Source of the DNA: Sedimenticola sp.
GTDB lineage: Bacteria > Pseudomonadota > Gammaproteobacteria > Chromatiales > Chromatiaceae
Direction of reading: 5' to 3'
NCBI GenBank assembly: GCA_026983675.1
Contig: JALSTP010000159.1
Location: forward strand, 1-41,074
DNA: 41,074 nucleotides
Numbering within the stretch: position 1 is the first letter of the stretch; each line of letters opens with the position of its first letter. The position numbers were made by a program, and so were the translations under genes. Shown here piece after piece: positions 1,921 to 21,614 of the stretch. Under the pieces are notes generated by a model. The model worked only from the letters and a program-made list of their open reading frames with translations. It was not told where the DNA came from and did not search any database.

Positions 1921-1942
1921 GGCGCGGTCCTCCATCGCCCTT

Positions 1943-2368: not shown

Positions 2369-2373
2369 GGTGG

Positions 2374-2627
2374 CTATTCCTCGTCTTGGATACGATCGAA
2401 TCGCTGGCGAATTTCGTCCGGCAGGCGGGCCACGAGATAGCCATATCGTCCCCACGCCTCCTGCACCTGGCCCCATAACGTCTCGATCTCCTGTGGCCTC
2501 CAGCCGGCGCACGTCTCACTTCGGGGAGAATGCCGAACACCCAGACATCGCGGATGATCTTTCCCGTCTCGGTCATGCCGCCGTAGAGGTCGTCGTAAAT
2601 GCCGGGGTAGCGCTTGTCAGGGTTCAT
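2374..2627 (-). pseudogene. Small cbb-associated gene broken by a one-base frameshift
   Basis: From ATG 2627 the frame reads 36 residues (MNPDKRYPGIYDDLYGG ... VFGILPE) and then turns into arginine-rich nonsense. A second frame takes over near 2518-2522 and reads ETCAGWRPQEIETLWGQ through GYLVARLPDEIRQRF to a TAG at 2374-2376, 5 bases before the next ATG. The second part has no start codon of its own after an in-frame stop upstream. Joining the two parts with one extra base gives a plausible 84-residue protein containing GILPE-x-ETCAGW. I have a loose memory of similar small proteins beside RuBisCO genes but cannot name the family. The break may be a real mutation, a recoding site or a sequencing error; no slippery heptamer is evident. 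Confidence 0.6.
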
Positions 2628-2636
2628 GGGGATGCC

Positions 2637-4970: not shown

Positions 4971-5057
4971 GCTGCTTCCCGGCGGAACCCTTCCCGCCAC
5001 CTCGGATCAGGGGAGAACCGGCGTTCCAAAAGATGCACTGTCAGGCGCCCCGGCGAA

Positions 5058-5864
5058 TCAGCCGAAGAAGGTGGCCACCGCCGCGTCCAGGGTATCGCGC
5101 ATGTCGGGATCATCGGTGAGGGGCCGCACCAACGTCATGCCACAGGCCGCAAGCGGCGTGGCGCCCTTGGCGATGAGCTGACCGGCATAGACCAGCAGAC
5201 GGGTGGAGATGCCTTCGTCCAAGCCGTGCCCCTTTAGGTTGCGCGCACGATGGGCGATCTGCACCAGCTTGTCGGCGGTCTCGGCGTCCACGCCGGTCTC
5301 GTGGGCAACGATCTGCGCCTCCACATCGGCCGCGGGATAGTCGAAATCCAGCGCCGCAAAGCGCTGCTTGGTGGACTGCTTGAGATCCTTCATCAGGCTC
5401 TGGTAGCCTGGATTGTAGGAGATCACCAGTTGAAAATCGGGATGCGCCTCCACCAGTTCCCCCTTCTTGTCCAGGGGCAGGGTGCGGCGATGGTCGGTGA
5501 GGGGATGAATCACAACGGTGGTGTCCTGACGCGCCTCCACCACTTCATCCAGATAACAGATGGCGCCTGCGCGGGCCGCCATGGTCAGAGGGCCGTCCTG
5601 CCAGCGGGTACCGTCCTTGTCCAGGAGGAAACGGCCCACCAGATCAGAGGCGGTCATATCCTCGTTGCAGGCCACGGTAATCAGGGGCCGCCCCAGTTTC
5701 CAGGCCATATATTCCACAAAGCGGGACTTGCCACAACCCGTGGGACCCTTGAGCATGATGGGCATACGTGCGCCATAGGCGGTCTCGTACAGATCGATCT
5801 CGTCCTGGACCGCACGGTAATAAGGCTCGCGGCGGATGACGTATTGGTCAATTGAATTACTCAT
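5058..5864 (-). CDS. cbbQ: CbbQ, MoxR-type AAA+ RuBisCO activase ATPase
   Basis: This 268-residue protein is of normal length for the CbbQ/NirQ/NorQ group. Walker A is GPTGCGKS at residues 40-47 and Walker B is ICYLDE at 102-107. [10 protein letters not shown], a conserved sensor-region motif of this group, follows. Acting as a hexamer with CbbO, it uses ATP to remodel inhibited RuBisCO. The adjacency to cbbL-cbbS and cbbO in this order identifies it as CbbQ rather than NorQ or GvpN. Start ATG 5864 begins [11 protein letters not shown] hairpin followed by four Ts lies in the 71-base gap after cbbS, which may lower cbbQO expression relative to cbbLS. Confidence 0.93.
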
Positions 5865-5893
5865 GTGCGACTTCCAGATTCAGGAAAACCCGC

Positions 5894-5914
5894 CCGCGTC
5901 CCGGTGGGACGCGG
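5894..5914 (-). terminator. Hairpin with short T run between cbbS and cbbQ (attenuating terminator)
   Basis: Read on the minus strand, a perfect 9-bp stem CCGCGTCCC / GGGACGCGG with a 3-base loop is followed by GCGGG and then TTTT. The T run is short and offset, so partial termination or 3'-end protection of the cbbLS message is more likely than a full stop. Confidence 0.5.
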
Positions 5915-5935
5915 ACGCCTTCTGGCCTGTAGCGG

Positions 5936-6310
5936 TCAGGCACTGCGGGCGGCCGGGCTGCCACGATAGATGACCATTGCGGCCCCTTGAGACTGCGCAT
6001 AATTGTCGTAGCCGATCAGGCGCACGTGATGGTCGGGATAGGCCTTGTGGCAGGCGTCGGCCTCTCCCAGGATCCTGTCCACGTCCGTCTCGCCGAACAT
6101 GGGCAGTTTCCACATGTACCAGTAATGGTCGAAGGCATTCTCTGGCTCCACGTGTTCGATGGCCGGGTTCCAGCCGCGGGAAACGATGTATTCCACTTGC
6201 TTCCGGATCTCGTCCTTATCCATCTCCGGCAGGTAGGAGAAGGTCTCGAACTTGCGGCTGGAGGGATCGCTTACGCTGGATTTGTAGTCTTGTACTTCAC
6301 TCATTGGCAT
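5936..6310 (-). CDS. cbbS: RuBisCO form I small subunit
   Basis: This is the small subunit (124 residues from ATG 6310) of the L8S8 enzyme that carboxylates ribulose bisphosphate. The core [14 protein letters not shown], then [29 protein letters not shown] and [13 protein letters not shown] is classic form IA CbbS. Two starts are close together, ATG 6310 (MPMSEVQ) and ATG 6304 (MSEVQ). GAGG lies 5 bases before the first and 11 before the second, so the first is chosen, although family members usually begin MSEVQDY. It follows cbbL after 64 bases that contain a strong stem-loop. Confidence 0.95.
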
Positions 6311-6344
6311 GAATTCCTCGGTTGGGTACTTCGTTGTCGGAACG

Positions 6345-6368
6345 GGGCGCCGGCCCATGCCGGCGCCC
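6345..6368 (-). promoter_or_regulatory. Perfect 10-bp stem-loop between cbbL and cbbS
   Basis: GGGCGCCGGC pairs perfectly with GCCGGCGCCC across a CCAT loop, starting 6 bases after the cbbL stop. There is no T run, so it is not a standard terminator. An mRNA-stabilising or processing element that tunes the cbbL:cbbS ratio is the likeliest role (inference). Confidence 0.6.
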
Positions 6369-6374
6369 TGAACT

Positions 6375-7796
6375 TCACTTGTGGGCCACGTCAAGCTTAT
6401 CCACGGTGTCGAACTCGAACTTGATCTCTTTCCAGGTTTCCATCGCCATCTTCAGCTCCGGACTGTGCTCGGCGGCGGCGGTGAGGATCTCTTTGCCCTC
6501 CTTCTCCAGTTCACGCCCCTGGTTGCGCGCCTCCACGCAGGCTTCAAGCGCCACACGGTTGGCCGCGGCTCCCGCTGCATTGCCCCAGGGATGGCCCAGG
6601 GTGCCGCCCCCGAACTGAAGCACCGCGTCGTCGCCGAAGATGGTGACCAGGGCTGGCATGTGCCAGACATGGATACCGCCCGAAGCCACGGCGAAGGCGC
6701 CGGGCATGGAACCCCAATCCTGGTCGAAGAAGATGCCGCGGGAGCGGTCTTCCTTGACGTAAGGTTCGCGCAGCAGGTCGATCCAGCCCAGGGTGGCCTC
6801 GCGGTCGCCCTCCAGCTTGCCCACCACGGTGCCGGTATGCAGGTGGTCTCCGCCGGACAGGCGCAGGATCTTGGTGAGCACGCGGAAATGGATACCGTGA
6901 TGCGGGTTCCGGTCGAGCACCGCATGCATGGCGCGATGGATGTGCAGCAGCAGACCATTGTCACGGCACCACTGGGCAAGACCCGTGTTGGCGCAGAAAC
7001 CGCCGGTGATGTAGTCATGCATGATGATCGGAGCGCCGATTTCCTTCGCATACTCGGCACGCTTGAACATCTCGTCAGGCGTGGGAGCCGTGACGTTCAG
7101 ATAATGCCCCTTGCGCTCGCCGGTCTCGCGCTCGGCCTTTTCGATGGCTTCCATGACAAAGTCGAATCTCTGCCGCCAACGCATGAAAGGCTGGGAATTG
7201 ACGTTTTCATCGTCCTTGGTGAAATCCAGACCGCCCCGGAGACACTCATACACCGCGCGTCCATAGTTCTTGGCCGACAGACCCAGCTTGGGCTTGATGG
7301 TGCAACCCAGCAGGGGGCGACCGTACTTGTTCATGATGTCGCGCTCCACCTGGATGCCATGCGGCGGGCCATTGCAGGTCATGACATAGGCGATGGGGAA
7401 ACGCACGTCCTCCAGCCGCAAGGCGCGCACCGCCTTGAAGCCGAACACATTGCCCACCAGAGAGGTGAAGACGTTGACCACGGACCCTTCTTCGAACAGA
7501 TCGATCGGATAGGCGATGAAGGCGTAGAAGGCCTCATCGTCGCCAGGCACATCCTCAATGGCATAGGCGCGGCCCTTGTAGTGGTCGAGATCCGTGAGCA
7601 GATCGGTCCAGACCGTGGTCCAGGTGCCAGTGGACGATTCGGCGGCGACTGCAGCCGCCGCCTCTTCCCGGGGCACGCCGGGCTGAGGGGTGATCTTGAA
7701 ACAGGCCAGCAGATCGGTGTCTTTGATACTGTAGTCGGGTTCCCAGTAGGTTTCGCGGTAGTCCTTGACGCCCGCGGAATAACTCTTGGTTGCCAT
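6375..7796 (-). CDS. cbbL: RuBisCO form IA large subunit
   Basis: The 473-residue catalytic subunit has its active-site elements in place. K168 is in TIKPK, the carbamylated lysine K194 is in FTKDDE with its metal ligands, H287 is in LHIHRA, and the loop-6 lysine K327 is in GTVVGKLEG. The N-terminus ([14 protein letters not shown]) and overall sequence fit form IA, the non-carboxysomal IAq branch given the downstream cbbQ-cbbO and the absence of carboxysome shell genes. GGAG lies 8 bases before ATG 7796. It is the first gene of the operon and is divergent from cbbR across 149 bases, consistent with CbbR control. Confidence 0.97.
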
Positions 7797-10111: not shown

Positions 10112-10768
10112 ATGGAACTTACCGAAACCTCGCGCCTCGCGCTACTGTCCACGGCGTGGATCGCCTATTTCGCGCTTCACTCCCTCCTTGCCTCGCTGCG
10201 TGTCAAACGGTGGGTGGCGGAGCGCCACCCCGATCTCATGCCTGCTTACCGCTTGATGTTCAATGCGGTCGCCCTGCTCTTCATCATCCCTCCTCTGGCC
10301 ATGACCTACCTGTTCCGCGGTGAATGGCTGTGGCAGTGGACAGGACCCGGAGGGTGGCTGGTGAACGGGATCGCCCTGCTGGCGGTGGGGGGGTTCGTCT
10401 GGTCACTGCGTTACTATGACAGCGGAGAGTTCTTTGGCACCAAGCAGTGGCGGGAGCGTAGCCGTGAGGTGGAGGACCAGGAACAGCTGCACATCTCGCC
10501 GCTCCATCGCTTCGTTCGGCATCCCTGGTACAGCCTGGGCCTGCTGCTGATCTGGACCCGCGACATGGACCCCGCCTTTCTGGTCACCGCGACCCTGGTA
10601 ACCCTTTACTTCATCGTGGGTTCACGGCTGGAAGAGCAAAAGCTGATGGTCTATCACGGTGAATCCTATCGCCGCTATCGCGACAAGGTGCCCGGTCTGG
10701 TGCCATTGCCCTGGCGCTGGCTGAGTGAACGCGAGGCGATGGCGTTGCAGGCCCGTTCGGATCAGTGA
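10112..10768 (+). CDS. Integral membrane methyltransferase-like protein (isoprenylcysteine/MddA/NnrU-like)
   Basis: This 218-residue protein has about five hydrophobic segments. The first is near residues 8-28 (LALLSTAWIAYFALHSLLAS). The C-terminal block LHRFVRHPWYSLGLLLIWTR, then SRLEEQKLMVYHGESYRRYR and VPGLVP, is the hallmark of membrane methyltransferases of the isoprenylcysteine carboxyl-methyltransferase/PEMT superfamily, which bind S-adenosylmethionine near the RHP motif. Methanethiol S-methyltransferase (MddA) and NnrU-type proteins are the closest groups I can think of. The substrate cannot be read from sequence. The gene ends 7 bases inside the convergent gene at 10762. Confidence 0.7.
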   Translation: MELTETSRLALLSTAWIAYFALHSLLASLRVKRWVAERHPDLMPAYRLMFNAVALLFIIPPLAMTYLFRGEWLWQWTGPGGWLVNGIALLAVGGFVWSLRYYDSGEFFGTKQWRERSREVEDQEQLHISPLHRFVRHPWYSLGLLLIWTRDMDPAFLVTATLVTLYFIVGSRLEEQKLMVYHGESYRRYRDKVPGLVPLPWRWLSEREAMALQARSDQ

Positions 10769-11139
10769 TAGGTGAGCGGCCGCTCCTCTGAAAGAAAGCG
10801 CAGCCACTGGGTCCACAGCGACCACCCTGGATGCAGATGGTAGTCGGGATGGTTGAGACTGACGATGCGAATCCCGTAGTCCAGCTCCCACACCCCTTCG
10901 TCCACCTGCCAGGGCGATCCCGACAGCACGGCCACCTCGGGCTTGCCGTCGTTCTCCATTGCGAAGGGTTCGATATACCCCAGTCCCTCGTTGTGAGGGA
11001 AGATCTCACGCACCAGTTTCCAGCTGCCATTGCGATGCAGGATGAGGAACGGGGGCGACACAGCAAAGATATCGCGCTGCTGTGAACCCATTCTGTTCCT
11101 CTGTCCCTGTAACGGCCTGTTCGAAGAGAAATCCGCCAT
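10762..11139 (-). CDS. Hypothetical protein at the end of the mla operon
   Basis: The predicted product has 125 residues, with no signal peptide or membrane segment. Recognisable stretches are PPFLILHRNGSWKLVREIFP and GYIEPFAMENDGKPEVAVL, which look like short beta strands. I do not recognise a family. Its ATG (11139) lies 3 bases after the stop of mlaC, which argues for translation in the same message. Its 3' end overlaps the convergent membrane methyltransferase-like gene by 7 bases. A later ATG (MGSQQRD, about 16 codons in) is an alternative start that gives a more compact domain. Confidence 0.6.
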   Translation of the reverse strand: MADFSSNRPLQGQRNRMGSQQRDIFAVSPPFLILHRNGSWKLVREIFPHNEGLGYIEPFAMENDGKPEVAVLSGSPWQVDEGVWELDYGIRIVSLNHPDYHLHPGWSLWTQWLRFLSEERPLTYH

Positions 11140-11142
11140 GAC

Positions 11143-11730
11143 TCAGCTCTGCCCCACCTTCTTTTCCAGTCGCTGCAGCAGCCCGGCGATGCCCTCGCGC
11201 TTGACGATGCTGCGGAATGTGCTGCGGAAGTTGTTCACCAGGCTGACGCCCTCGATAACCACGTCGTATACGCGCCAGCTCCCATGGCGATTACGCAGCT
11301 TGAATCGCAGCGGCGCTGCCACTCCCGTTTTGAGAATGATGCTGACCGGCACCACTGCCCGTTTGCCCTTGGTGCGCGCCTTGCCGAATACCACTTTTTC
11401 GGAGGTATAGGACTCGATGGCGGTCATGTAGGTATTCTCCAGCAGGGTCTGCAACAAGGCGGCGAAGCGCGCCCGTTCTTCGCGGCTGGCCTTCTTCCAG
11501 TTACGCGCCAGGATGGAGCGGGACATGGTGTCGAAGTCGAAATGCCCGGCGATCAAAGTGCGCATCTTGTTGCGCTTCGCCGCCTGCTCGAGAGAGGCAT
11601 CCTTCACCACCGCCAGAACCTCGTGGATACCCTGGCGCACCACCTCCGAGGGCGAAGATGCAGCGGTAACCGCCATTGAGACGGCCCACAGCAACAGGAC
11701 AAAAATGGTAGAACGGATCGGATTCTTCAT
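11143..11730 (-). CDS. mlaC: MlaC/Ttg2D-type periplasmic phospholipid-binding protein
   Basis: This 195-residue exported protein has a signal peptide (about residues 1-24, hydrophobic core IFVLLLWAVSMAVTA). The mature part has the MlaC pattern: AGHFDFDTMSRSILARNWKK, then RARFAALLQTLLENTY, VPVSIILKTG, and WRVYDVVIEGVSLVNNFRST near the end. MlaC ferries phospholipids between the outer-membrane complex and the inner-membrane MlaFED transporter. ATG 11730 (MKNPIRST) is chosen because it opens the signal peptide; upstream in-frame codons overlap mlaD. It lies 34 bases after mlaD. Confidence 0.92.
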   Translation of the reverse strand: MKNPIRSTIFVLLLWAVSMAVTAASSPSEVVRQGIHEVLAVVKDASLEQAAKRNKMRTLIAGHFDFDTMSRSILARNWKKASREERARFAALLQTLLENTYMTAIESYTSEKVVFGKARTKGKRAVVPVSIILKTGVAAPLRFKLRNRHGSWRVYDVVIEGVSLVNNFRSTFRSIVKREGIAGLLQRLEKKVGQS

Positions 11731-11764
11731 ATCGCGCTGTTCTCCTGACCGGTGGACAATGGGC

Positions 11765-12220
11765 CTATTCGCCGCTGTCGTTCTGAAACATGTACTTGCC
11801 GATGAGTTCTTCGAGGTTGACCGCCGATTCGGTCTCCGCGATCTCATCTCCGGGCTCAAGCAGTTCATCGGCCCCTCCGGGGGAAATCTTTATAAATTTG
11901 CCACCGATCAGGCCGGTGCTGCGCACCGAGGCGATGGCATCCTCCTGCAGGCGCACCGACTTCGGCAGAGACACCTCCACCACCGATTCGAACGCCTCGG
12001 GATCGAGCCGGATCCGCTTGACCTTGCCCACCACGACGCCGGCCACCTCCACGTCCGAACCCACTTTGAGTCCTGACGACGAGGTGAAACGGGCCTCCAA
12101 GGTGTAGTGGTCGTTATCCAATCCGCCCACGCCCCCCAACTGCACCGCTAGAACGGCGAAACTGGCCAATCCGACCAGCAGAAAAAGCCCTACCATGGTT
12201 TCAATCTTGATCCGATTCAT
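11765..12220 (-). CDS. mlaD: MlaD, MCE-domain lipid transport protein
   Basis: This 151-residue protein has a single N-terminal membrane anchor (ETMVGLFLLVGLASFAVLAV, about residues 7-26). One MCE domain follows: YTLEARFTSSSGLKVGSDVE, then VAGVVVGKVKRI and STGLIGGKFIKISPGG. MlaD forms a periplasmic hexameric ring on MlaFE that threads phospholipid. The length is normal for MlaD. It lies 19 bases downstream of mlaE. Confidence 0.94.
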   Translation of the reverse strand: MNRIKIETMVGLFLLVGLASFAVLAVQLGGVGGLDNDHYTLEARFTSSSGLKVGSDVEVAGVVVGKVKRIRLDPEAFESVVEVSLPKSVRLQEDAIASVRSTGLIGGKFIKISPGGADELLEPGDEIAETESAVNLEELIGKYMFQNDSGE

Positions 12221-12239
12221 ACGTCGATACTCCTGGCGC

Positions 12240-13028
12240 TCATAACATCACTGCGCCGATGAGATAGTCCCCAAAAAGAATGGCGATGGCAGAGAGCACC
12301 ACCGCGTCGGTGGTCACCCGGCTCACCCCCTCCGCGCCGAAGGCGCCACCCCGCTCCAGGTGCAGAAAGTAGCCCTTGGCGGTGGCAATCCAGGTGATCA
12401 CCAGGCCGAACAACAACGACTTGTAGAGACCCATGGCCACGTCGTTCCATTCCACCCCCGCCGCCATGCTGTCGAAATAGGCCCCCTCGCTGAGGCCGAA
12501 GATCACCACCCCCACCAGATAGCCGCCGATGATGCCCACCACGTCGAAGATGCTGGTGAGTATCGGCACCGAGAGGACACCGGCGATGATCTTGGGGGCG
12601 ATGAGGAAGCGATGGGGATCGATGCCCATGCACTCCAAGGCATCGATCTGCTCCGAGGTGCGCATGATGCCGATCTCGGCGCACATGGCGGAACCCGCGC
12701 GCGCCACCACCATCAACGCCGCCATCACCGGTCCCAGTTCGCGGATCAGGGCCAGCGCGGTGGTGGAGCCAAGCATGTCCATGGAACCGAAGCGGTCCAG
12801 GGTGTTGTAGAACTGCAATGCCAGCACCATGCCCGTGAACAGCCCCGAGACCACGATCACCAGTAGCGAACGCACGCCGATGAAGTGGATCTGTCGAACG
12901 ATGGAGAAGGGGTCATACGGCGGTCTCAGGATGGCCACCATCGACCGCGCAAGCATCAGCGCCATGCGGCCCGCCTGATCGAGCGTATGCAGCGTGACAT
13001 CTCCGATGCGATAGAGCAGCCGGGTCAT
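12240..13028 (-). CDS. mlaE: MlaE, phospholipid ABC transporter permease
   Basis: This 262-residue inner-membrane permease has about five to six hydrophobic segments. The MlaE family signature is clear: GVRSLLVIVVSGLFTGMVLA, then LGPVMAALMVVARAGSAMCA and EIGIMRTSEQIDALECMGID. ATG 13028 overlaps the stop of mlaF (ATGA), indicating translational coupling. An open frame extends far upstream only because it runs through mlaF in another frame. Confidence 0.95.
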   Translation of the reverse strand: MTRLLYRIGDVTLHTLDQAGRMALMLARSMVAILRPPYDPFSIVRQIHFIGVRSLLVIVVSGLFTGMVLALQFYNTLDRFGSMDMLGSTTALALIRELGPVMAALMVVARAGSAMCAEIGIMRTSEQIDALECMGIDPHRFLIAPKIIAGVLSVPILTSIFDVVGIIGGYLVGVVIFGLSEGAYFDSMAAGVEWNDVAMGLYKSLLFGLVITWIATAKGYFLHLERGGAFGAEGVSRVTTDAVVLSAIAILFGDYLIGAVML

Positions 13029-13840
13029 GCGTCGGTCCCCGTCAGGCGCCGCAAATAGGCGTCGCCATCCAGCACGGCGTCGCGCGGGCGCCGGTTGAGC
13101 AGATTCTGGATTCGTTCGTCGTCGCTGTTGCGCACCGCCTCCACGCTGCCGGTCATCAGCACCCGGCCCTCGCCCAGCACCGAGATGCGGTCGGCGATCT
13201 TGAAGGCGCTCTCCAGTTCGTGGGTGACCACCACGATGGTGGTTTTCATGGCGTCGCGGAGGCGCAGGATCAACTCGTCCAGCTCCGCCGAGGTGACCGG
13301 ATCGAGCCCTGCCGAGGGCTCGTCGAAAAAGAGCAGTTTGGGATCCATCACCACCGCGCGGGCAAAGGCGGCACGCTTGACCATGCCGCCCGACAACTCC
13401 GCCGGCATCATATCCTCGAATCCCGCCAGGTTGACCAGCTCCAGCTTGAGCCGGGTCATGATGCGCATGGTGTTCTCGTCCAGCCGGGTGTGCGCACGCA
13501 GTGGCAGGCGCACATTCTCGCCCACGCTCAAGGAACTGAGCAGCGCCCCACCCTGGAAGGCAACCCCCATCTGGCGGCGCAGCGCCAGCCGCGTTCTGCG
13601 GTCGGCCGTATGGATGTTGTGCCCCAGCACCTCGACTTGCCCGTGGCTCGGCGCTTTCAGTCCCAGCAAGGTGCGCAGGAAAGTGCTCTTGCCCGAGCCG
13701 CTGCCGCCCATCACCACCATCACCTCGCCGCGCCGGATCTCGAGGTCGATGCCCTTGAGGATCTCGCGCTCGCCATAGCAGACCACCAGATCGCGCACCT
13801 GCACCACGGGATCGGGAGCCGTTTGCGCGCGGTTGCCCAT
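13025..13840 (-). CDS. mlaF: MlaF, phospholipid ABC transporter ATPase
   Basis: This 271-residue ABC ATPase has Walker A GGSGSGKST at residues 45-53, the signature LSGGMVKRAAFARAV, Walker B LLFFDEPSAGLDP and the switch histidine in VVVTHELES. The LSGGM-(K/R)R form is characteristic of Mla/MCE ATPases. ATG 13840 is chosen because GGAGG lies 7 bases upstream; a TTG at 13858 is rejected. The start sits 2 bases after the stop of the STAS gene, so the partner-switching and lipid-transport genes form one tight operon. Confidence 0.95.
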   Translation of the reverse strand: MGNRAQTAPDPVVQVRDLVVCYGEREILKGIDLEIRRGEVMVVMGGSGSGKSTFLRTLLGLKAPSHGQVEVLGHNIHTADRRTRLALRRQMGVAFQGGALLSSLSVGENVRLPLRAHTRLDENTMRIMTRLKLELVNLAGFEDMMPAELSGGMVKRAAFARAVVMDPKLLFFDEPSAGLDPVTSAELDELILRLRDAMKTTIVVVTHELESAFKIADRISVLGEGRVLMTGSVEAVRNSDDERIQNLLNRRPRDAVLDGDAYLRRLTGTDA

Positions 13841-13842
13841 GT

Positions 13843-14169
13843 TCACGCCTCCAGCCAATCGTCGATCCGGGCCCGAATGGGAAACACCGTATCCAGCCGG
13901 GTGAGGTGCAATACCTGACGCGGCGCCTCCTGCAACCCGGCAAGCCCAAAACGCCGGCCCTTCTCTTTCGCCTGCTGCAGCCCTTCCACCAGACTGGCGA
14001 TGGCCGAACTGTCGACGAAGCTCACCGCCGCCATGTCGATGAGCAGGTCCCGGCCGCGCCCCAGGACATCGAGGATCTGCCGGCGCAGCCGCGGCGATGA
14101 ATGAAAGTCGATCTCGCCCCGCGGGGCGATGACCGTGTAGTCGCCTTCGTTTCGAATCTCAAACTCCAT
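13843..14169 (-). CDS. STAS-domain protein (anti-sigma factor antagonist / MlaB-like)
   Basis: This 108-residue single-domain STAS protein has the pattern EGDYTVIAPRGEIDFHSS at the start and VSFVDSSAIASLVEGLQ around the canonical phospho-acceptor serine (S54 or S55). Such proteins are de-phosphorylated by SpoIIE-type phosphatases and bind RsbW-like kinases. MlaB, a STAS subunit that binds MlaF, is the alternative. The usual mlaB slot after mlaC is occupied here by an unrelated gene, so this protein could serve either or both roles. ATG 14169 follows the kinase stop by 1 base. Confidence 0.88.
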   Translation of the reverse strand: MEFEIRNEGDYTVIAPRGEIDFHSSPRLRRQILDVLGRGRDLLIDMAAVSFVDSSAIASLVEGLQQAKEKGRRFGLAGLQEAPRQVLHLTRLDTVFPIRARIDDWLEA

Positions 14170-14170
14170 A

Positions 14171-14605
14171 TCACCCACTCTCGTGTTGTACGCGCATGAC
14201 CAGGCCATCCACACGTTTACTCATTTCCAGCACATTGCCCTCTCCCGCTACCGGGGTCCCGCACTCAACCCGGTCCATGATGCGGCGCATCAAATAGACG
14301 CCCCATCCCCCACAGCGGCCCTCACCCGGGGGCAGACAGGGCCATGGCCGGCCGTCCGCCTCCGGGGCATAATCGGCCAAACGAAACAGCAGCCGGTCAC
14401 CCTCCCGGCGGATACGCAGCACCAGCCGTCCCGACAGGTCGCCGCCATAGGCATGCCGCACCACATTGGCGGCCGCCTCCTGGACCGCAAGCACGATCTC
14501 GGCGGTCTCGCTGCTGTTGCATCCCAAGGCATCCAGCCATCGCCGGACCCGCTGCCGGAGATCGCGGAAGCCTGCTTCATCACCGGTAAAACAGATCTCC
14601 TGCAC
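14171..14605 (-). CDS. RsbW-like anti-sigma / serine kinase (HATPase_c)
   Basis: This 144-residue single-domain GHKL ATPase has an N-box EAAANVVRHAYGG (residues 43-55, with E43 and N47) and a glycine-rich lid region GGWGVYLMRRIMD near residue 100. It is of the size and layout of RsbW/SpoIIAB-type kinases that phosphorylate STAS antagonists. The start is GTG 14605, 4 bases after the phosphatase stop. No sigma factor gene is present in the window, so its second partner is unknown. Confidence 0.88.
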   Translation of the reverse strand: MQEICFTGDEAGFRDLRQRVRRWLDALGCNSSETAEIVLAVQEAAANVVRHAYGGDLSGRLVLRIRREGDRLLFRLADYAPEADGRPWPCLPPGEGRCGGWGVYLMRRIMDRVECGTPVAGEGNVLEMSKRVDGLVMRVQHESG

Positions 14606-14609
14606 CGCC

Positions 14610-15860
14610 TCATCCCTCCCACGCGAGGCCGATCAGGGCCACATCGTCGCCCGGCGCCGACGAACCCCGCCACGCATCGACCGCCTGCAGCACCGCATCC
14701 AGGCCTGTCTCCAGGTCGCCCTCCGCGCAGGCCTCCAGCATCCGGCCGAGCCGCTCCCTGCCAAAGGGTTCCCGCTCCGGGTTGCGCTCCTCGCTCAGCC
14801 CGTCGGTGGCGAGATAGAGATGATCGCCCGTTTGCAGTTGCACCACCCCCTCCTCATATTCCACCTCCGCCATCATGCCGATGGGCAACGCCGGCAGGTC
14901 GTGGACGATCGCCTGGCCCCTTCTCACCAGCACCGGTCCCTGGTTCCCCGCGCTGACGAAACGAAAAACACCGGTGAGGCGATCCAGCACACCGTAGAGA
15001 AAGGTGAAGTAGAGCCCCGACCCCGCGCCCATGGGAAACAGCCGGTTCAAATGGCGCGCCACGGTCGCCGGCGCCTGCGGGCGACCAGCGGCGCGCGGCC
15101 CACCGTGCTCCATGATCAGGCCACCCCCCGGATTCAGGTGGTGGGTCACGGAGACGGCCAGCAACGACGACGGCACCCCATGGCCACATACATCCAGTAC
15201 CCAGGCCACCAGATAGCGATCACCGATCCCGCGGATGTCGAGGGCGTCTCCCCCCAGTTCCTCGCACGGACGGTACCGCCAGGCCGCCGAGACCCCCTCC
15301 ACCTCGGGCGGCGCGACCGGCAACAAGGCCCGCTGCACACGGGCCGCCGCCTCCAGGTCCCGCTTCATGCGCGTATTGGCGGCCTCCATCTGGCGATGGG
15401 CCCGCGCCAGCGCCCGCTCGGCCCGCTTGCGGCCAGTGATGTCCCAGGTGACGCCGATCATCCGTTGGATACGCCCGTCCCGGTCCAGCAACACCTCGGA
15501 ACGGTCGGCCAGATAGCGCTCGCGGCCATCCGGCAACCGGATGCGAAACTCCACTTCATGGGCCTCGCTACTGCGGGTCTCGCCGATCCGCATCAACTGT
15601 TCGGCGAGGATGCCCCGGTCGTCCGGATGCAACCGTTCCAAAAGATCGGCATGACGCCCGGAAAAGCGCCCGGGCGGGATGCCGTAGAGTTCGTGCATCC
15701 GCTCATCCCAGGTGATGCGTCCGCTGGCCAGATCCCAGTCCCAGGCACCAATGCCGCCGGCCGCCAACGCCAGCCGCAGCCGCTCTGCCTGCCACTGTCC
15801 GTCCCGGTCGGGACACTCCCCCTTTTCGAACCGGCCGGTGATGCCCTCGGCTTGCTGCAA
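14610..15860 (-). CDS. PAS-SpoIIE (PP2C) serine phosphatase, RsbU-like
   Basis: This 416-residue protein starts at TTG 15860, with GAGAGGG about 7 bases upstream. A PAS domain (about 28-150: GGIGAWDWDLASGRITWDER, then HPDD and GVTWDITGRKRAE) joins through a coiled linker to a SpoIIE/PP2C domain (about 175-414). Metal-binding acidic motifs include GGDALDI, VLDVCGHGVPSSL, LYLATDGLSE and GDDVALI. It would de-phosphorylate the STAS protein encoded two genes downstream in response to a signal sensed by PAS. It is the first gene of the operon and is divergent from the phosphohexomutase gene. Confidence 0.9.
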   Translation of the reverse strand: MQQAEGITGRFEKGECPDRDGQWQAERLRLALAAGGIGAWDWDLASGRITWDERMHELYGIPPGRFSGRHADLLERLHPDDRGILAEQLMRIGETRSSEAHEVEFRIRLPDGRERYLADRSEVLLDRDGRIQRMIGVTWDITGRKRAERALARAHRQMEAANTRMKRDLEAAARVQRALLPVAPPEVEGVSAAWRYRPCEELGGDALDIRGIGDRYLVAWVLDVCGHGVPSSLLAVSVTHHLNPGGGLIMEHGGPRAAGRPQAPATVARHLNRLFPMGAGSGLYFTFLYGVLDRLTGVFRFVSAGNQGPVLVRRGQAIVHDLPALPIGMMAEVEYEEGVVQLQTGDHLYLATDGLSEERNPEREPFGRERLGRMLEACAEGDLETGLDAVLQAVDAWRGSSAPGDDVALIGLAWEG

Positions 15861-15936
15861 CGGGCTGCCCTCTCATTCGATTTCACCTACTGATACAATT
15901 GGCGTCCAATCGCATGAAAGCTTGACGGGAGACCCC

Positions 15937-17427
15937 ATGAATCAAGGAAGCGTGTTGATCGGCGATCTGATGCGGGAGAGCGGCGTGGGTTTCGGCACCA
16001 GCGGCGCCCGCGGGCTGGCGGAGGACATGACCGACGCGGTGTGCTACGCCTATACGCGCGGATTCCTCCAGTATCTGCGCGACTCGGCAGGCCTGCCGCC
16101 GGGCGGCGAAGTGGGTCTGGCCGGGGATTTTCGGCCCTCCACCTCACGCATCCTCGAGGCCTGTGCCCGGGCAGTTCGCGACAGCGACTGCCAACCCCTT
16201 CATTGTGGACGCATCCCCTCGCCGGCCATCGCCGCCTTCGGCCTGCAACAGGGCATCCCCACCTTGATGGTCACCGGCAGCCACATCCCTGACGACCGCA
16301 ACGGCATCAAGTTCAACACCGCCCGCGGCGAGATCCTCAAGGAGGATGAGGCCGGGATCCGCGAACAGCGCGTCGAGATTCCCGCCCACCTGTTCAACGA
16401 CGAGGGCGGGTTGCGCGAGACCGGCGCCCTCCCCTCCGTCGATACGGCGGCCACCGAGGCCTATGCCGCCCGATATCTCGATTTTCTGCCATCGGGGATC
16501 CTCGCCGGCCGCCGTATCGGGCTCTACGAACATTCCACCGTGGCGGCCGCCCCTTTCCGCCGGGTGCTCGCCGCACTGGGCGCGGAGGTGACCCGCCTCG
16601 GCCCCTCCGAAACCTTCATACCGGTGGATACCGAGGCGATCCGGCCGGAGGACGTGGAGCTCGCGCGCAAATGGGCGGCTGGCGGCCGCTTTGACGCCAT
16701 CGTCTCCGCCGACGGTGACGGCGACCGGCCGCTGGTCAGCGACGAACGGGGAGAATGGCTGCGCGGCGACGTGGCGGGGATCCTCTGCGCCCGTTTTCTG
16801 AAGGCCGATACGGTGGTGGCGCCGGTGAGCTGCAACACCGCCCTGGAAAAATCCGGCTGGTTTCCCCACACCCTGCGCACCCGCATCGGTTCGCCCTATG
16901 TGATCGCCGGCATGAACGAGGCACTGGCGGACGGCCGGGCGCCGGTGGTGGGCTACGAAGCCAACGGGGGTTTTCTCACCGCCAGCGCCATCGAACGCGA
17001 TGGCCGCAGCCTCCCCGCCCTGCCCACCCGGGACGCGCTGATTGTGGTGCTTGCCGTGCTGCTGCTGGCCGATCATCAGCCGGTCTCATCGCTGCTCGGC
17101 GAACTGCCCCCGCGCTACACCGCCAGCGACCGGTTGAAGGCGTTCCCGACGGCCCTGAGCCAGGCCCGCATCGCCGCCCTCCACAGCGGCGATTTCGAAC
17201 AGGACCGGACGGCCATCGAGGCCCTGTTTGGAGCCGACTTCGGCGAGGTGGCCGCCATCGACACCACCGATGGACTGCGCATTACCTTTGCTTCCGGCGA
17301 GATCGCCCACCTGCGCCCTTCGGGCAACGCGCCGGAGCTGCGCGCCTACACCGAGGCGGACACGCCGGAACGCGCCGCGGCGATCAACCGGCGCTGCCTT
17401 GAGATCCTGGAGGGATGGCGACCTTGA
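15937..17427 (+). CDS. Phosphomannomutase/phosphoglucomutase-family enzyme
   Basis: This 496-residue alpha-D-phosphohexomutase has the four family loops: FGTSGARG near the N-terminus, the catalytic-serine loop TGSHIPDDRNG (serine near residue 115), the metal loop DGDGDRP (about 259-265), and the sugar loop GYEANGGF with the phosphate loop RPSGNAPELR (about 461). It would interconvert mannose or glucose 1- and 6-phosphates for surface polysaccharide precursors. ATG 15937 has GGGAG 5 bases ahead. The open frame extends upstream, but that part is antisense to the phosphatase gene. TGSHIP in place of the commoner TASHNP is within family variation. Confidence 0.9.
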   Translation: MNQGSVLIGDLMRESGVGFGTSGARGLAEDMTDAVCYAYTRGFLQYLRDSAGLPPGGEVGLAGDFRPSTSRILEACARAVRDSDCQPLHCGRIPSPAIAAFGLQQGIPTLMVTGSHIPDDRNGIKFNTARGEILKEDEAGIREQRVEIPAHLFNDEGGLRETGALPSVDTAATEAYAARYLDFLPSGILAGRRIGLYEHSTVAAAPFRRVLAALGAEVTRLGPSETFIPVDTEAIRPEDVELARKWAAGGRFDAIVSADGDGDRPLVSDERGEWLRGDVAGILCARFLKADTVVAPVSCNTALEKSGWFPHTLRTRIGSPYVIAGMNEALADGRAPVVGYEANGGFLTASAIERDGRSLPALPTRDALIVVLAVLLLADHQPVSSLLGELPPRYTASDRLKAFPTALSQARIAALHSGDFEQDRTAIEALFGADFGEVAAIDTTDGLRITFASGEIAHLRPSGNAPELRAYTEADTPERAAAINRRCLEILEGWRP

Positions 17428-17503: not shown

Positions 17504-17525
17504 TGAACAAGACGGAGTTGCAGTG

Positions 17526-17849
17526 ATGCTGAAGTATGCAGACCAGCGGCGCTTCCCGCGGATGGAAGTGGAATGTCCCGCCCGCTTTCGGGTGATGGAC
17601 GAAAACGAGGCCACCGGCGCCATCGTAAAGAACCTCAGCGGCAGCGGCCTGCTGATGTGGATCGACCACGAAGTGGAAGTGGGCACCCGCATGACCCTCG
17701 AGGTCTACCCCAAGATGGATGTCACCCCCCCCCTCTACGCCGAGGTCGAGGTGGTGCGCACCGTGGACGTGGAAGACGGCAACTTCGCCATCGCCTGCCA
17801 GATCGAGCGGGTGCTGGACGAAGGCGAACTCACACCGACACTCATCTGA
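17526..17849 (+). CDS. PilZ-domain c-di-GMP-binding protein
   Basis: This 107-residue single PilZ domain has both c-di-GMP contact motifs, RRFPR at residues 8-12 and NLSGSG at 36-41. ATG 17526 is chosen with GGAG 8 bases upstream; GTG 17523 immediately before it is equally readable. Single-domain PilZ proteins act as c-di-GMP adaptors for motility or exopolysaccharide machinery. The sugar-phosphate mutase just upstream makes polysaccharide output a reasonable guess, but no synthase gene is present. Confidence 0.88.
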   Translation: MLKYADQRRFPRMEVECPARFRVMDENEATGAIVKNLSGSGLLMWIDHEVEVGTRMTLEVYPKMDVTPPLYAEVEVVRTVDVEDGNFAIACQIERVLDEGELTPTLI

Positions 17850-17867: not shown

Positions 17868-18671
17868 TTACGATTCGGGCGGGGTCATTGCCATCGGCTG
17901 CACTGGCGGAACAATCTGTGGCACCACCAGGGCGCCGTCCTCGCTGAAGCGGGTCAGGGGCAGCAGGATGGGGGTGTGCGAAACGCCCCGCCCCAGCGGC
18001 ACCAGCCGTAGCACGGCATCCTGATATCCATCCAGATTCACATCCGCAAAGGCCACCGAGAGGAGCCTGAACCCCGGATCGTGGCTGTGGTGGGAGGGGA
18101 TGCAGCGGACCCCCGCCGGCCCCTGCGAGAGAAAACCGTGGAATACACCGTCCTCGATACGGCAGACCTGGTCGAGGCCGGGCGGAATGGACGCCTCGCC
18201 GTCACGGAAGGGGATCAGGCCGGCAAAATCGGTGAAACCGGGCGGCAACGGCATGCATCCGGGGGGCGGCGGCATACCCGACGCCTGGTCCCCACATCCC
18301 GCGGCGAGGGGGAAATCGGAGAAGCTGGCGTTGCGGAAGTCGTAGCCACTGACAAAATCGTGCGCCACTGGATGCCGATACGCACGAATGAATTCATAGT
18401 ACTCACAATCGTTGGCCACCTTCGCCCACAAGGTGCGGTCCAGCCGCGACCCCCAGCGATCGGCGCCCATGGAGCGCGCCGCCAACACCGAAGGACATTC
18501 CGCGGGGATGTCGAACGCCTGCTCATCGCGGCGGTTGATCAAAAGCTTGACCTGATAGCTGCTCACCTTCTCGCCGCTGCCAGGCTTGGCAAAGCTGAGT
18601 TGCAGTGGTGTATCACCGGCCAGCGCCGGCAGGGCCAGCATCAAACCGAGTAGTGAAGCGATAATTTTCAT
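17868..18671 (-). CDS. Exported protein of unknown function, coupled to MMPL transporter
   Basis: This 267-residue protein has a clear signal peptide (about residues 1-18, MKIIASLLGLMLALPALA). Near the C-terminus DVNLDGYQDAVLRL resembles the calcium-binding D-x-N-x-D-G loop of FG-GAP/EF-hand type repeats. A proline-rich patch (SGMPPPPGCMPLPPG) and several cysteines (in ECPS, NDCEYY, GCGDQ, GCMP, VCRIE, RCIPS) suggest disulfides in a periplasmic or secreted protein. I do not recognise the family. Its ATG overlaps the transporter stop (ATGA), so the two are translated together and may act together. Confidence 0.75.
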   Translation of the reverse strand: MKIIASLLGLMLALPALAGDTPLQLSFAKPGSGEKVSSYQVKLLINRRDEQAFDIPAECPSVLAARSMGADRWGSRLDRTLWAKVANDCEYYEFIRAYRHPVAHDFVSGYDFRNASFSDFPLAAGCGDQASGMPPPPGCMPLPPGFTDFAGLIPFRDGEASIPPGLDQVCRIEDGVFHGFLSQGPAGVRCIPSHHSHDPGFRLLSVAFADVNLDGYQDAVLRLVPLGRGVSHTPILLPLTRFSEDGALVVPQIVPPVQPMAMTPPES

Positions 18672-21469
18672 GTTTCCTCCTTTTGGGTGGTCCGTCCCCC
18701 GGGCGTGTTTCCCCTCTTCATCCGCCTTTGCCGTATCAGGCGCACCAGGCGCCGACTGACATCCTGGGCCAGATTGACGAACAGCTTGGCGGTTATTTTT
18801 GGATGACTGCGTATGGTGTTCTCGATGGATTCCCGGTTGATCACCAGGAGCGTGGTCGGTTCGGTGGCGACCGCGTCAGTGCGGCGGGGACTGTCGGCCA
18901 GCAGCGCGACATCGCCGAAGACATCGCCAGGGCCGAAGGGCTCGACCAGGGGCGGGGCATTGCCATCGCTGTCGAAACGCACCTCGACCCGGCCATTCAT
19001 CACCATGTACATCTCGTTTGCCGGGTCGTCTCTATGAAAGACCACCTCATTGGGCGAGAGTTTCTGCAAGGTGCTGGAAAGGATGAAGCGGCGAATCTCC
19101 CAGGGTTTCATACCCTTGAACAGGAGACTCTTGGCCACCACCTGTTCGCGCAGGTGCAGGGAGAGCATGTCCCACAGGGTGATCAGCCGCAGCGAGGAGA
19201 TGAACAACGGCGTCAACACGAAGTCCACCAGCAGCGCGGTGGAGATCACCAGCGCGCTGAGCATGCCAAACTGCACGATGGGTTCGAAATCGGAGCGCAG
19301 AAAGACCAGAAAACCGGCAATCAACGCCACCGAAGTGGCCAACACCGGCAACGCCTCGCTGCGCACCGTGGCGACCATGGCGCGGCCCTGGCGGCGAGTG
19401 ACCCGCAGTTCCTGGTTGTAGCGCAGCATGAAGTGGAGGGTGTCGTCCACCGCGATGCCGATGGCGATGGCGGCCGCCATGGTGGTGCCGATATTGAGCG
19501 GGATGCCCAGATAGCCCATCAGCCCGAACAGCACCACCACCGGCAACACATTGGCCAGCGCCGCGAAGACGCCCGCGCGCCATTCGGTGAACAAGGTGGC
19601 GACGATCAGGACGATGATGACGATCAACAACACGATGGACTGTAACTGGCCGTTGATCATGGAGCGGGTGGCCGCCAGGGTGAGCACCGAGTCGCCGGTG
19701 ATTCGCGCCCGCAGGCCGGGGTCCAACCTCGTCTTCAGGTAGGTATTCAGGCGGTCGACCATCGCCTGCAATGCAGCGGTGGACTCCACGTTGTGGCGCA
19801 CCAGGATACGGGCCATGCTGAAGTCCTTGGTCACGTAGTCCTTCACGTGCTTGTAGTCGAGAAAGATCATCAGTTCGTTGACCTCGTCGTCCGACTCGGG
19901 GGTCAAGGGCTCGTCCAGCTCCTGGAAGGCGCCGTTGAGAAGGGCCAGATAATCGGCGAACGAGGTGGTGGATCGCGCCAGTCCCGACTGGGCGATGAAC
20001 TTCTGGATCTTGACCAGTTCATCCATATAGCGCACCTTGAGAAAGGTGTCCTCAATGCCGGATTCGAGCACGATGGAGAGGGACTCAAGGCCGGCGAGAC
20101 GCCTGTTGACCTCCTCGAAGTGGGCGCGCACCGCGGAATCCCGGCCCAGGCTGTCGAGCGGGTTGTGGTTGATCTGGATGCGGGGGATGCCCAGGGCGGC
20201 GACGCCGACGATCAGTGCCGACACGCCATAGATCGGCCAGCGGTTATTCGACAGCCAGCGCCAGTACCCCTCGGCCAGGCGGCTCTGCCCGCCGTCATAG
20301 AAGCGGCCGCCACCGTCCAGTTGCAACTGTCCCGCCACCCGCAGCAGCGCGGGGATCAGGCTGATGGTAATGAGAAAATTGAGCAGCAGCCCCCCGGAGG
20401 CGACCACACCGAACTGCCACAACACCTGGATACCCGACAGACCCACGGACAGAAAGCCAACGAAGGTAGTGGCGAAGGTGAGCAGCACCACCCGCCCCAT
20501 CTTGCGCGCCATCAGCTCCAGCGCGCGGCGGTTGTCGAGGCCCTGGCGCTGGCCTTGGCGAAACTCCGAGATCAGATGGATATCCTCGGTGGAACCGACG
20601 ATGATGATCAGGATCGGCACGATGGAGGTGACCACGTTGAGCGGGATATCCACCAACGCCATCACGGCCAGGGTCCAGAGAATGCTGAGCGCCGCGGTCA
20701 TCACCGGAATGAGGATGTCGATCAACTGACGCAGCAGCAGGAACAGGGCGATCAGCAACGCCCCCACCGCCCAGGGGAAGAGTTGCAACTGCTCCTGCTT
20801 GATCTTGCCGGCGATCTCGGTGCGCACATAAGGAAAGCCGATGTTGAAATGCTTGGCATAGACGCCCCGCAGGCCATCGGTGAGGCGACTGATTCCTTCT
20901 GTCACCTGGGCGTCCGTGGCCCCCGCCTCCGTCTCCTTGAGCACGATGGCCACGGTCATGGTGTGGCCATCCGGCGACAACAGCACGTTACGCACGAAGG
21001 TGTTCTTCAGCGCCGCCGCCACGATGCGCTGCTCCTCTTTGGGCGTCGCCGGCAACCTGGCCAGATAGGGGTCCTTGTTGAGGTAGCCCCCCACGGTCTT
21101 CAGCCAGGGCACGCTGAACAGGCTCTCCACCCGCGCCACATAAGGCAGCGACTCGAGCGCCGTGATGATGCGCTTCAGCACCACCAGCTTGGACTTCTCC
21201 AGCGGACGCTCATCCTCCAGCACCAGCAACGTCAGCTGCTCCTCGCCGAATTGTTGTTTGATGCGCTCGTAATACTGGCGGTCCGGATCGTCACGCACCA
21301 GCAGATCGCCGGAGGTGACCCGCACCTGGACATGGGGCAGCTGGGTCGCCGCCGCAATGGAGATCGCCAACAGGATGAACAACACCCACCAGGGGTGAGC
21401 GATGTAGATCCCCATCAGCCGATCGATGGCGAAACGCGCCAGAAGGGGGCTGCTCTTGTCTTTTATCAT
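18668..21469 (-). CDS. MMPL/RND-superfamily transporter fused to a cyclic-nucleotide-binding-like domain
   Basis: This 933-residue protein opens with a membrane segment (HPWWVLFILLAISIAAATQL, about 26-45) and then a periplasmic loop. The remainder of the RND duplication follows, with two clusters of membrane helices (for example AVGALLIALFLLLRQLIDIL and IGIAVDDTLHFMLRY). This fits the MMPL/HpnN-like RND group, which often moves lipids or other hydrophobic cargo. The last about 120 residues form a CRP/cNMP-type beta barrel (LSPNEVVFHRDDPANEMYMV, then NGRVEV, PGDVFGDVALL and SPRRTDAVA). ATG 21469 (MIKDKSSPLL) is chosen; longer readings run into the divergent intergenic region. Ligand binding by the barrel is unproven. 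Confidence 0.85.
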   Translation of the reverse strand: MIKDKSSPLLARFAIDRLMGIYIAHPWWVLFILLAISIAAATQLPHVQVRVTSGDLLVRDDPDRQYYERIKQQFGEEQLTLLVLEDERPLEKSKLVVLKRIITALESLPYVARVESLFSVPWLKTVGGYLNKDPYLARLPATPKEEQRIVAAALKNTFVRNVLLSPDGHTMTVAIVLKETEAGATDAQVTEGISRLTDGLRGVYAKHFNIGFPYVRTEIAGKIKQEQLQLFPWAVGALLIALFLLLRQLIDILIPVMTAALSILWTLAVMALVDIPLNVVTSIVPILIIIVGSTEDIHLISEFRQGQRQGLDNRRALELMARKMGRVVLLTFATTFVGFLSVGLSGIQVLWQFGVVASGGLLLNFLITISLIPALLRVAGQLQLDGGGRFYDGGQSRLAEGYWRWLSNNRWPIYGVSALIVGVAALGIPRIQINHNPLDSLGRDSAVRAHFEEVNRRLAGLESLSIVLESGIEDTFLKVRYMDELVKIQKFIAQSGLARSTTSFADYLALLNGAFQELDEPLTPESDDEVNELMIFLDYKHVKDYVTKDFSMARILVRHNVESTAALQAMVDRLNTYLKTRLDPGLRARITGDSVLTLAATRSMINGQLQSIVLLIVIIVLIVATLFTEWRAGVFAALANVLPVVVLFGLMGYLGIPLNIGTTMAAAIAIGIAVDDTLHFMLRYNQELRVTRRQGRAMVATVRSEALPVLATSVALIAGFLVFLRSDFEPIVQFGMLSALVISTALLVDFVLTPLFISSLRLITLWDMLSLHLREQVVAKSLLFKGMKPWEIRRFILSSTLQKLSPNEVVFHRDDPANEMYMVMNGRVEVRFDSDGNAPPLVEPFGPGDVFGDVALLADSPRRTDAVATEPTTLLVINRESIENTIRSHPKITAKLFVNLAQDVSRRLVRLIRQRRMKRGNTPGGRTTQKEET

Positions 21470-21614
21470 TCGTTGTTCGTCCGCGAGACGCGGAACACTC
21501 CTCTCTCCCCGATTATGCCTCAATACGTGGGGGAAAAAAGGGGCGCGGGAGATTTGGCTTCCCAAAGGGTAAAATAGCCGCCCTTGTTCCAAACCCAATG
21601 GATGGCCCTTCACC

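Follow-up and report, generated by a model that had tools for sequence, protein, structure and literature searches.

A partner-switching module coupled to one class of the MlaF ATPase, and its possible role as a switch of lipid transport

In a 41,074-nucleotide stretch of Sedimenticola sp. DNA (contig JALSTP010000159.1, positions 1 to 41,074 of the forward strand; hereafter the window), the three genes of a SpoIIE/RsbW/STAS partner-switching module stand directly before the mlaF, mlaE, mlaD and mlaC genes of an Mla transporter. Each half of this arrangement is known; the coupling of the module to one class of the ATPase MlaF is real, conserved and new. No report of such an operon, combining Mla or ABC-transporter genes with a partner switch, stood among the papers listed by searches of the open-access PMC literature (subscription papers and preprints lay outside the scope of the search), and a term search of the main text of a 2021 review of STAS-only proteins returned neither 'MlaB' nor 'ABC transporter'. 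From sequence comparison, it is likely that the STAS protein takes MlaB's place and that its phosphorylation gates the MlaF ATPase. A broader reading is favoured on balance, in which the module would be a widespread post-translational switch acting directly on the ATPase of MCE transporters, one module being able to serve two transporters per cell, a type 2 transporter in cis and a type 1 MlaFED in trans (the types are defined below).

Genes were assigned by Pfam matches and open reading frames (ORFs). All seven lie on the reverse (−) strand, from 15860 to 11143, with zero internal stops. A PAS-SpoIIE serine phosphatase of the PP2C type (14610..15860, TTG start; SpoIIE 123.8 bits, PAS_3 62.1 bits) is followed by an RsbW-like GHKL serine kinase (14171..14605; HATPase_c_2 85.4 bits) and by a STAS protein of the RsbV/SpoIIAA type (13843..14169; STAS 75.7 bits), the proposed MlaB-like switch subunit, with Ser54 as candidate phosphosite. 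The transporter genes encode an MlaF ATPase of a distinct class with a C-terminal extension (13025..13840; ABC_tran), a type 1 MlaE permease (12240..13028; MlaE 248.9 bits, residues 43-257 of 262) in which the Pfam scan of the 262-residue protein found no fused STAS domain, the MCE protein MlaD (11765..12220; MlaD 75.4 bits) and the periplasmic lipid carrier MlaC (11143..11730; MlaC 154.3 bits); by Pfam match, order and spacing, these four together are the genes of an Mla transporter. Genes and coordinates agreed exactly with the first-pass annotation of this DNA. The spacing of 1-4 bases given there was borne out between SpoIIE and kinase (4), kinase and STAS (1) and STAS and mlaF (2, as had been stated for the end of the STAS gene), and did not extend to mlaE/mlaD (19) or mlaD/mlaC (34); mlaF and mlaE overlap (−4). 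The usual mlaB position after mlaC holds, as had also been noted, a different gene, a small ORF of 125 amino acids (10762..11139, −) that starts 3 bases after mlaC, is without Pfam match and had no counterpart in the loci scanned by phmmer; it possibly lies outside the system. A scan of 10500-16100 returned zero sigma-70-type promoter-like sites against a shuffled mean of 1.1, which is weak evidence only, and five terminator-like sites (2.5 on average after shuffling), which were used neither for nor against co-transcription; three of the latter are on the − strand within the operon, an overlapping pair in mlaE and one in the kinase gene.

With dozens of loci sharing it, the arrangement is beyond chance. 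When 210 genomes of the order were searched with the STAS query, 16 genomes matched at ≥70 bits, the next score being 52.7 bits; at 14 of the 15 other loci kinase and STAS genes adjoin MCE genes, and at the remaining one (L070) they stand without mla. A profile (A1) built from the STAS family and applied at E ≤ 1e-15 matched 62 of 369 gammaproteobacterial genomes (58 of them at ≥100 bits, spanning 33 families) and, in the phylum sample, 63 of 398 genomes, mainly through weaker matches from one family. Thirty loci from the class search, taken with 1.5 kb flanks, showed mla genes in 25 cases, the kinase in 29 and the phosphatase in 27. A scan of GTDB contigs yielded 292 confirmed stretches, and the best 80 of the 292 (the named loci) come, according to record titles, mostly from gammaproteobacterial metagenome-assembled genomes, with few beta- or alphaproteobacterial records and one acidobacterial; the title of L188, Klebsiella pneumoniae, is doubtful. 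In this neighbourhood survey, of the kind suggested at the outset, the gene immediately downstream of STAS encodes MlaE (55) or MlaF (9) at 64 of the 80 named loci, 14 loci lack adjacent MCE genes and 2 lie at a contig edge; upstream of STAS, the kinase is found at 78 and the phosphatase at 71. Loci L144 and L176, which share contigs with L061 and L062, are inside the count of 80 and outside the alignments and the 114-locus scans described below. Two gene orders were distinguished. The window has type 1, STAS-MlaF-MlaE-MlaD-MlaC; type 2, which is more frequent, reads STAS-MlaE-MlaF-long MlaD and has no MlaC. The module was also present in the named strains Methylohalomonas lacus HMT 1 (L168) and Thiohalobacter thiocyanaticus Hrh1 (L185). 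For the weaker STAS relatives L047-L060, the low-scoring matches of the order search, which served as negative controls, an mla match within 1.5 kb was found in 0 of 14.

Across the 369 genomes, with cut-offs of ≥100 bits for STAS and ≥300 bits for MlaF, 56 had both the STAS protein and the MlaF class, 2 had STAS only, 4 MlaF only and 307 neither (Fisher p 8e-59, a value that ignores shared ancestry). Of the two STAS-only genomes, G423 and G521, the former has a contig that ends inside MlaE just after STAS; of the four scored as MlaF-only, G220 has a contig that begins inside MlaE, G279 carries next to its MlaF a module whose STAS scores lower, and the remaining two are G275 and G443. In the order sample all 14 genomes with the MlaF class fall among the 16 with STAS, the other two being G022 and G013, the latter 40% complete and with a broken mlaF adjoining the module (L075). 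The pairing was also seen in trans: among 17 genomes whose module shows no adjoining mla (including the contig-end loci L150 and L173, loci L163 and L196 with <2.2 kb downstream, and L070), 14 encode an MlaF of the class at another place (≥305 bits), with G966, G968 and G022 as exceptions. Eleven of these 14 unlinked MlaF loci were extended, and MlaF with MlaE was found at all 11, MlaD at 10 and MlaC nearby at 11 (on the same strand in 2); the STAS profile detected no STAS gene at any of the 11. At L156 and L172 the module has a DUF1841 gene on one side and a CHASE2-cyclase gene on the other, a position where L160, L162, L167 and others have the type 2 trio too. From this shared neighbourhood, it seems that L156 and L172 lost (or never gained) the trio and kept the module, and a STAS subunit acting in trans would produce such a pattern.

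The 114 loci scanned with the STAS profile (1.3 Mb, window included) contained one STAS gene in 98 cases, none in 16 and two in 0. In a leave-one-out check the profile recovered 7 of 7 proteins or domains, among them Escherichia coli MlaB and the source genome's own MlaB, so a second MlaB at these loci would probably have been detected. Searching the same loci with E. coli RpoE, FliA and RpoS gave no sigma factor except one 17-bit match (L215), with the limits that distant sigma factors could be missed and that sigma genes outside these loci were not sought; by this search, the sigma factor that is encoded with the module in an anti-sigma system of the SigB/SigF type is absent here.

The target of the module is probably MlaF, as judged from class membership. 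Among the matches listed, the window MlaF scored 306-398 bits to the module class and 159-266 bits to other MlaF-like proteins. Against type 2 MlaF proteins of the order it scored 343-363 bits, against MlaF of E. coli 183 and of Pseudomonas aeruginosa 195, while the window MlaE scored merely 116-138 bits against type 2 MlaE of the order. In a quick tree of 131 MlaF rows, which has some long branches, 94 module-class rows together with L267 and L268 formed one clade (96 rows; Shimodaira-Hasegawa-like approximate likelihood-ratio test (SH-aLRT) 87) within which types 1 and 2 were intermixed; L267 and L268 are type 1 MlaF paralogues from the module-bearing genomes G300 and G421. One MlaF class thus pairs with two dissimilar permease types and the module tracks the ATPase, which makes MlaF the likely target. 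A separate observation concerns L138 and L175, where a type 2 set is followed by a second, type 1 MlaE and MlaD with a single module-class MlaF in the stretch, as if one ATPase served two permeases.

The tail of the window MlaF aligns with Tyr261/Leu265 of E. coli MlaF, and in module-class rows reaching the C terminus the Tyr is kept in 89/93 and the first Leu in 92/93. Module-class tails measured 18-38 residues (93 of 94 rows, the other one ending before the tail); the lengths were 24-30 in 11 canonical rows, 5-17 in 14 rows beside long MlaE ORFs and ≤16 in the 10 remaining rows; six of the seven long MlaE ORFs scanned had an N-terminal STAS_2 match at E ≤ 1e-3, three of these exceeding the Pfam cut-off. 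In this sample the C-terminal extension therefore accompanies a free STAS partner. Residues D121, T124, I127, M128 and R130 were specific to the class (101-107 of 109 rows) and mapped to, or immediately ahead of, helix 122-135 of the MlaF model (predicted local distance difference test (pLDDT) 82.8; C-terminal helix 259-267 of low confidence, block means 53-60), a suggestive placement given that this helix would lie in the helical subdomain where MlaB docks. Nine short rows were dropped before the 109-row alignment, 16 rows without C terminus stand outside the Tyr/Leu counts, and 15 further rows of <235 residues were dropped for the tree. Locus L106 and the window are one and the same, so the window counts twice in the STAS, MlaF and kinase/phosphatase alignments, the tree and the tail counts.

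By profile and model, the STAS protein is RsbV/SpoIIAA-like and not MlaB-like in descent. Near-full-length matches of profile A1 were TM1442 (70 bits), RsbV (42) and SpoIIAA (33-42). The STAS model (pLDDT 93.8) had TM1442, SpoIIAA and RsbV as its closest folds (Z 17.7-18.5), and P. aeruginosa MlaB was matched at Z 12.6 (root mean square deviation 2.0, 95 residues aligned). In MlaB, a short STAS protein encoded after mlaC, strand five and the final helix of SpoIIAA are absent (PMC7367683); the window model has a helix at 102-107, and its gene precedes mlaF. D53-S54-S55 was invariant in 134/134 STAS rows, and S54, which aligns with T52 of E. coli MlaB, starts helix 54-69 of the model. Conservation of the stretch ASLVEGxQ is inflated in the 80 named loci, where it served as the scan pattern.

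Catalytic residues of the two enzymes are invariant as well. Catalytic D205, D223 and D353 of SpoIIE were invariant in 119/119 rows and D405/D406 in 118/118, and in the kinase E43, N47, D78, G99, G100 and G102 were invariant in 131/131; we take the latter to correspond to the GHKL N-box and G-boxes. With PP2C aspartates, GHKL motifs and a STAS protein with Ser at the conserved site, the genes are those of a partner-switching module. In 21/119 phosphatase ORFs the kinase domain is encoded in the same frame as the phosphatase domain, which fits two enzymes with one substrate. Input domains vary: the 84 SpoIIE ORFs scanned, window included, had GAF in 44, HDOD in 36, a receiver in 2 and PAS in 1, the window. 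The PAS input assumed in the first-pass annotation is thus present here (PAS_3) and unusual in the family. A constant output side with a varied input is as expected of a signalling module.

Partner-switching phospho-switches are usually known for controlling gene expression. In the mechanism proposed here, the output of the phospho-module would be an ABC ATPase and not a sigma factor. Unphosphorylated STAS would use its helical face to dock on MlaF at the helical subdomain, allowing MlaF to work with MlaE; the RsbW-like kinase would bind the same STAS face and phosphorylate Ser54, upon which STAS would leave MlaF and lipid transport would stop; the PAS-governed SpoIIE phosphatase would remove the phosphate and restore transport. 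Physical binding, phosphorylation, mutual exclusion, polarity (unphosphorylated being on) and the PAS signal are what we infer. The earlier suggestion that STAS is a phospho-switched MlaB-like subunit draws support from co-occurrence in cis and in trans, at most one STAS gene per locus, no convincing sigma factor nearby, the invariant residues and the retained MlaF extension, with the amendment that the protein would not be an MlaB by descent. In the parts of the E. coli studies that bear on this, MlaB was needed for MlaF assembly and activity (PMC7367683, PMC5016091), T52E of MlaB weakened MlaF binding, and the C-terminal extension of MlaF wrapped the partner MlaF, with Tyr261, Leu265 and Leu266 inserted at the MlaF-MlaB interface (PMC7367683). 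Phosphorylation of MlaB was proposed there by analogy with SpoIIAA (Thong et al. 2016, PMC5016091; Kolich et al. 2020, PMC7367683), and the relevant passages of both papers name no kinase for it.

In the source genome (3.08 Mb in 232 contigs), a single further MlaE is encoded on contig C206, within a second operon that runs MlaF, MlaE, MlaD, MlaC and ends with a 102-residue MlaB-like STAS protein, the canonical mlaFEDCB order. A separate mlaB had been named beforehand as a finding that would count against the model if it bound MlaF and the window STAS protein bound the kinase alone. Such a gene exists, in form only: it is the last gene of an mlaF-E-D-C-B operon that has an MlaF gene of its own. 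Domain totals for the genome were 7 STAS_2, 4 SpoIIE and 17 HATPase_c_2 matches, so partner-switch parts are not unique to the window locus. Three STAS_2 matches and one HATPase_c_2 match cluster on contig C130 (G000, ~1260-7530; L005-L007, L015), which is possibly another partner switch.

Several results weigh against a phospho-switched STAS subunit of MlaF. The MlaF class occurs without the module in G443 (100% complete), where the sole MlaE adjoins the module-class MlaF, and in G275 (97%). G966, G968 and G521 have STAS but solely other MlaF-like ATPases. G022 (95% complete) keeps kinase and STAS, but searches gave neither MlaF (at 1e-40) nor MlaE; at this locus (L070, 196-1861) the two genes adjoin a PP2C gene, and the pair may have another target. 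Profile A1 matched MlaB partially, at 19-21 bits (E. coli MlaB 21) against 70 for TM1442, and with STAS so much nearer TM1442, MlaB-like binding does not follow from descent. About 40 other class-specific MlaF positions map elsewhere, so the D121-R130 cluster is no more than suggestive. The alpha-2 residues E62, G63 and Q65, tried as marks of MlaF binding, were rejected because they are common to 23-24 of 37 weaker relatives outside the family (the family was represented by 53 rows that the scan pattern had not selected). Covariation was uninformative: in mutual information for STAS with MlaF (76 pairs) and for STAS with the kinase (129 pairs), the top columns were mostly terminal or variable. 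In the published E. coli data consulted, MlaB T52A stays bound yet inactive (PMC5016091, PMC7367683) and MlaF without its extension still binds MlaB (PMC7367683); neither the MlaF extension nor the phosphosite hydroxyl is therefore a simple proof.

Three other explanations were weighed. If the module were an ordinary partner switch controlling transcription through a factor encoded elsewhere, with mla as a co-transcribed neighbour or regulon member, the RsbV/SpoIIAA-like sequence and fold of STAS, the persistence of the G022 pair and a related kinase-STAS pair adjoining ubiD in another family would all fit; we regard this as unlikely, since the module and a single MlaF class go together also where the two are not linked, no other STAS gene stands beside these MlaFs, and the 114 loci are without sigma match save that of 17 bits (distant sigma factors could escape, and those elsewhere were not sought). 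Decidedly improbable, in our estimate, is direct regulation by the kinase, in which free RsbW-like protein would bind and inhibit MlaF as an anti-sigma factor does its target and STAS would titrate the kinase. The co-occurrence data fit this equally well and it follows the classical logic of partner switching, as generally known, but it leaves the MlaF class without a STAS subunit despite a C-terminal extension typical with free MlaB, whereas the canonical operon has an MlaB-like STAS and nearly all of the long MlaE ORFs scanned (6/7) have a fused STAS match. STAS could also be an MlaB-like subunit of reversed polarity, active when phosphorylated, or the enzymes could merely tune assembly. For E. 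coli, the sources report MlaB T52A as dead for ATPase though bound, so that the hydroxyl itself matters (PMC5016091, PMC7367683), while T52E lowers MlaF binding, which points to the unphosphorylated form as on (PMC7367683); we give this reading very little weight.

If the module does gate the ATPase directly, partner switching would extend from gene expression to transport, with an ABC transporter as its output, and the hypothesis of MlaB phosphorylation would gain the kinase that it has lacked. Control of MlaB by phosphorylation, and hence of lipid traffic to the outer membrane, has been raised in at least two papers, in the passages concerned (PMC5016091, PMC7367683). The operon family brings together, in adjacent genes, a candidate kinase, phosphatase, substrate and ATPase, which makes this question directly testable.

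Neighbouring genes were also recorded. Near the window operon lie genes for a small PilZ-domain protein (17523-17849, +) and an MMPL-family exporter with a C-terminal cyclic-nucleotide-binding domain (18668-21712, −). At many loci (L172 6331-8613, L136, L156, L168 and others) a CHASE2 and guanylate-cyclase gene, identified by Pfam for L172 and by similarity for the other loci, lies downstream of the module or type 2 operon, and at many of these an endonuclease III-like gene and DUF1841 lie upstream. Loci L113-L135 (kinase and STAS in 23/23, UbiD in 22/23) were considered as a negative control and rejected, since 3 of 5 extended loci of this UbiD family, of which 3 belong to L113-L135, have an MCE operon just upstream. 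Within a different family of this phylum, L303, L304 and L305 have an MCE operon (MlaE, MlaD, TPR protein) followed by kinase-STAS-UbiD. Their MlaF position (e.g. L303 8114-8875, −) holds a protein of 254-255 residues without Pfam match, weakly ABC ATPase-like (best PDB E 0.003) and without a Walker A motif in the alignment, possibly a pseudo-ATPase by these features.

The window system was compared with four known ones. Like E. coli MlaFEDCB, it has MlaF, MlaE, MlaD and MlaC, a small free STAS protein encoded alongside with Ser/Thr at the same aligned site, and an MlaF C-terminal extension with the Tyr/Leu pattern; it differs in that the STAS protein is of the RsbV/SpoIIAA type with a C-terminal helix, is encoded before mlaF and is preceded by kinase and phosphatase genes, and in that MlaF is of another class. 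With SpoIIE/SpoIIAB/SpoIIAA and RsbU/RsbW/RsbV it shares a PP2C phosphatase, a GHKL kinase and a STAS protein encoded together with invariant catalytic and phosphosite residues, whereas the module is without a sigma factor nearby (114 loci) and is linked to, and co-occurs with, an ABC ATPase. MCE systems with STAS-MlaE fusions, noted in 2016 (in the part of PMC5016091 consulted), have the order STAS-MlaE-MlaF-MlaD of the type 2 module operon, but their STAS is covalently fixed and their MlaF tail is short, and in the 16 loci L269-L284 an RsbW-like match was lacking throughout and a SpoIIE-like gene adjoined in a single case, on the opposite strand (L284). In SypE/SypA of Vibrio fischeri, as far as described in the relevant part of PMC8256260, the STAS protein is likewise active when unphosphorylated, control is by a combined kinase/phosphatase, and the output is no known sigma factor; the target of SypA is given there as unknown, whereas the candidate target here is an ABC ATPase.

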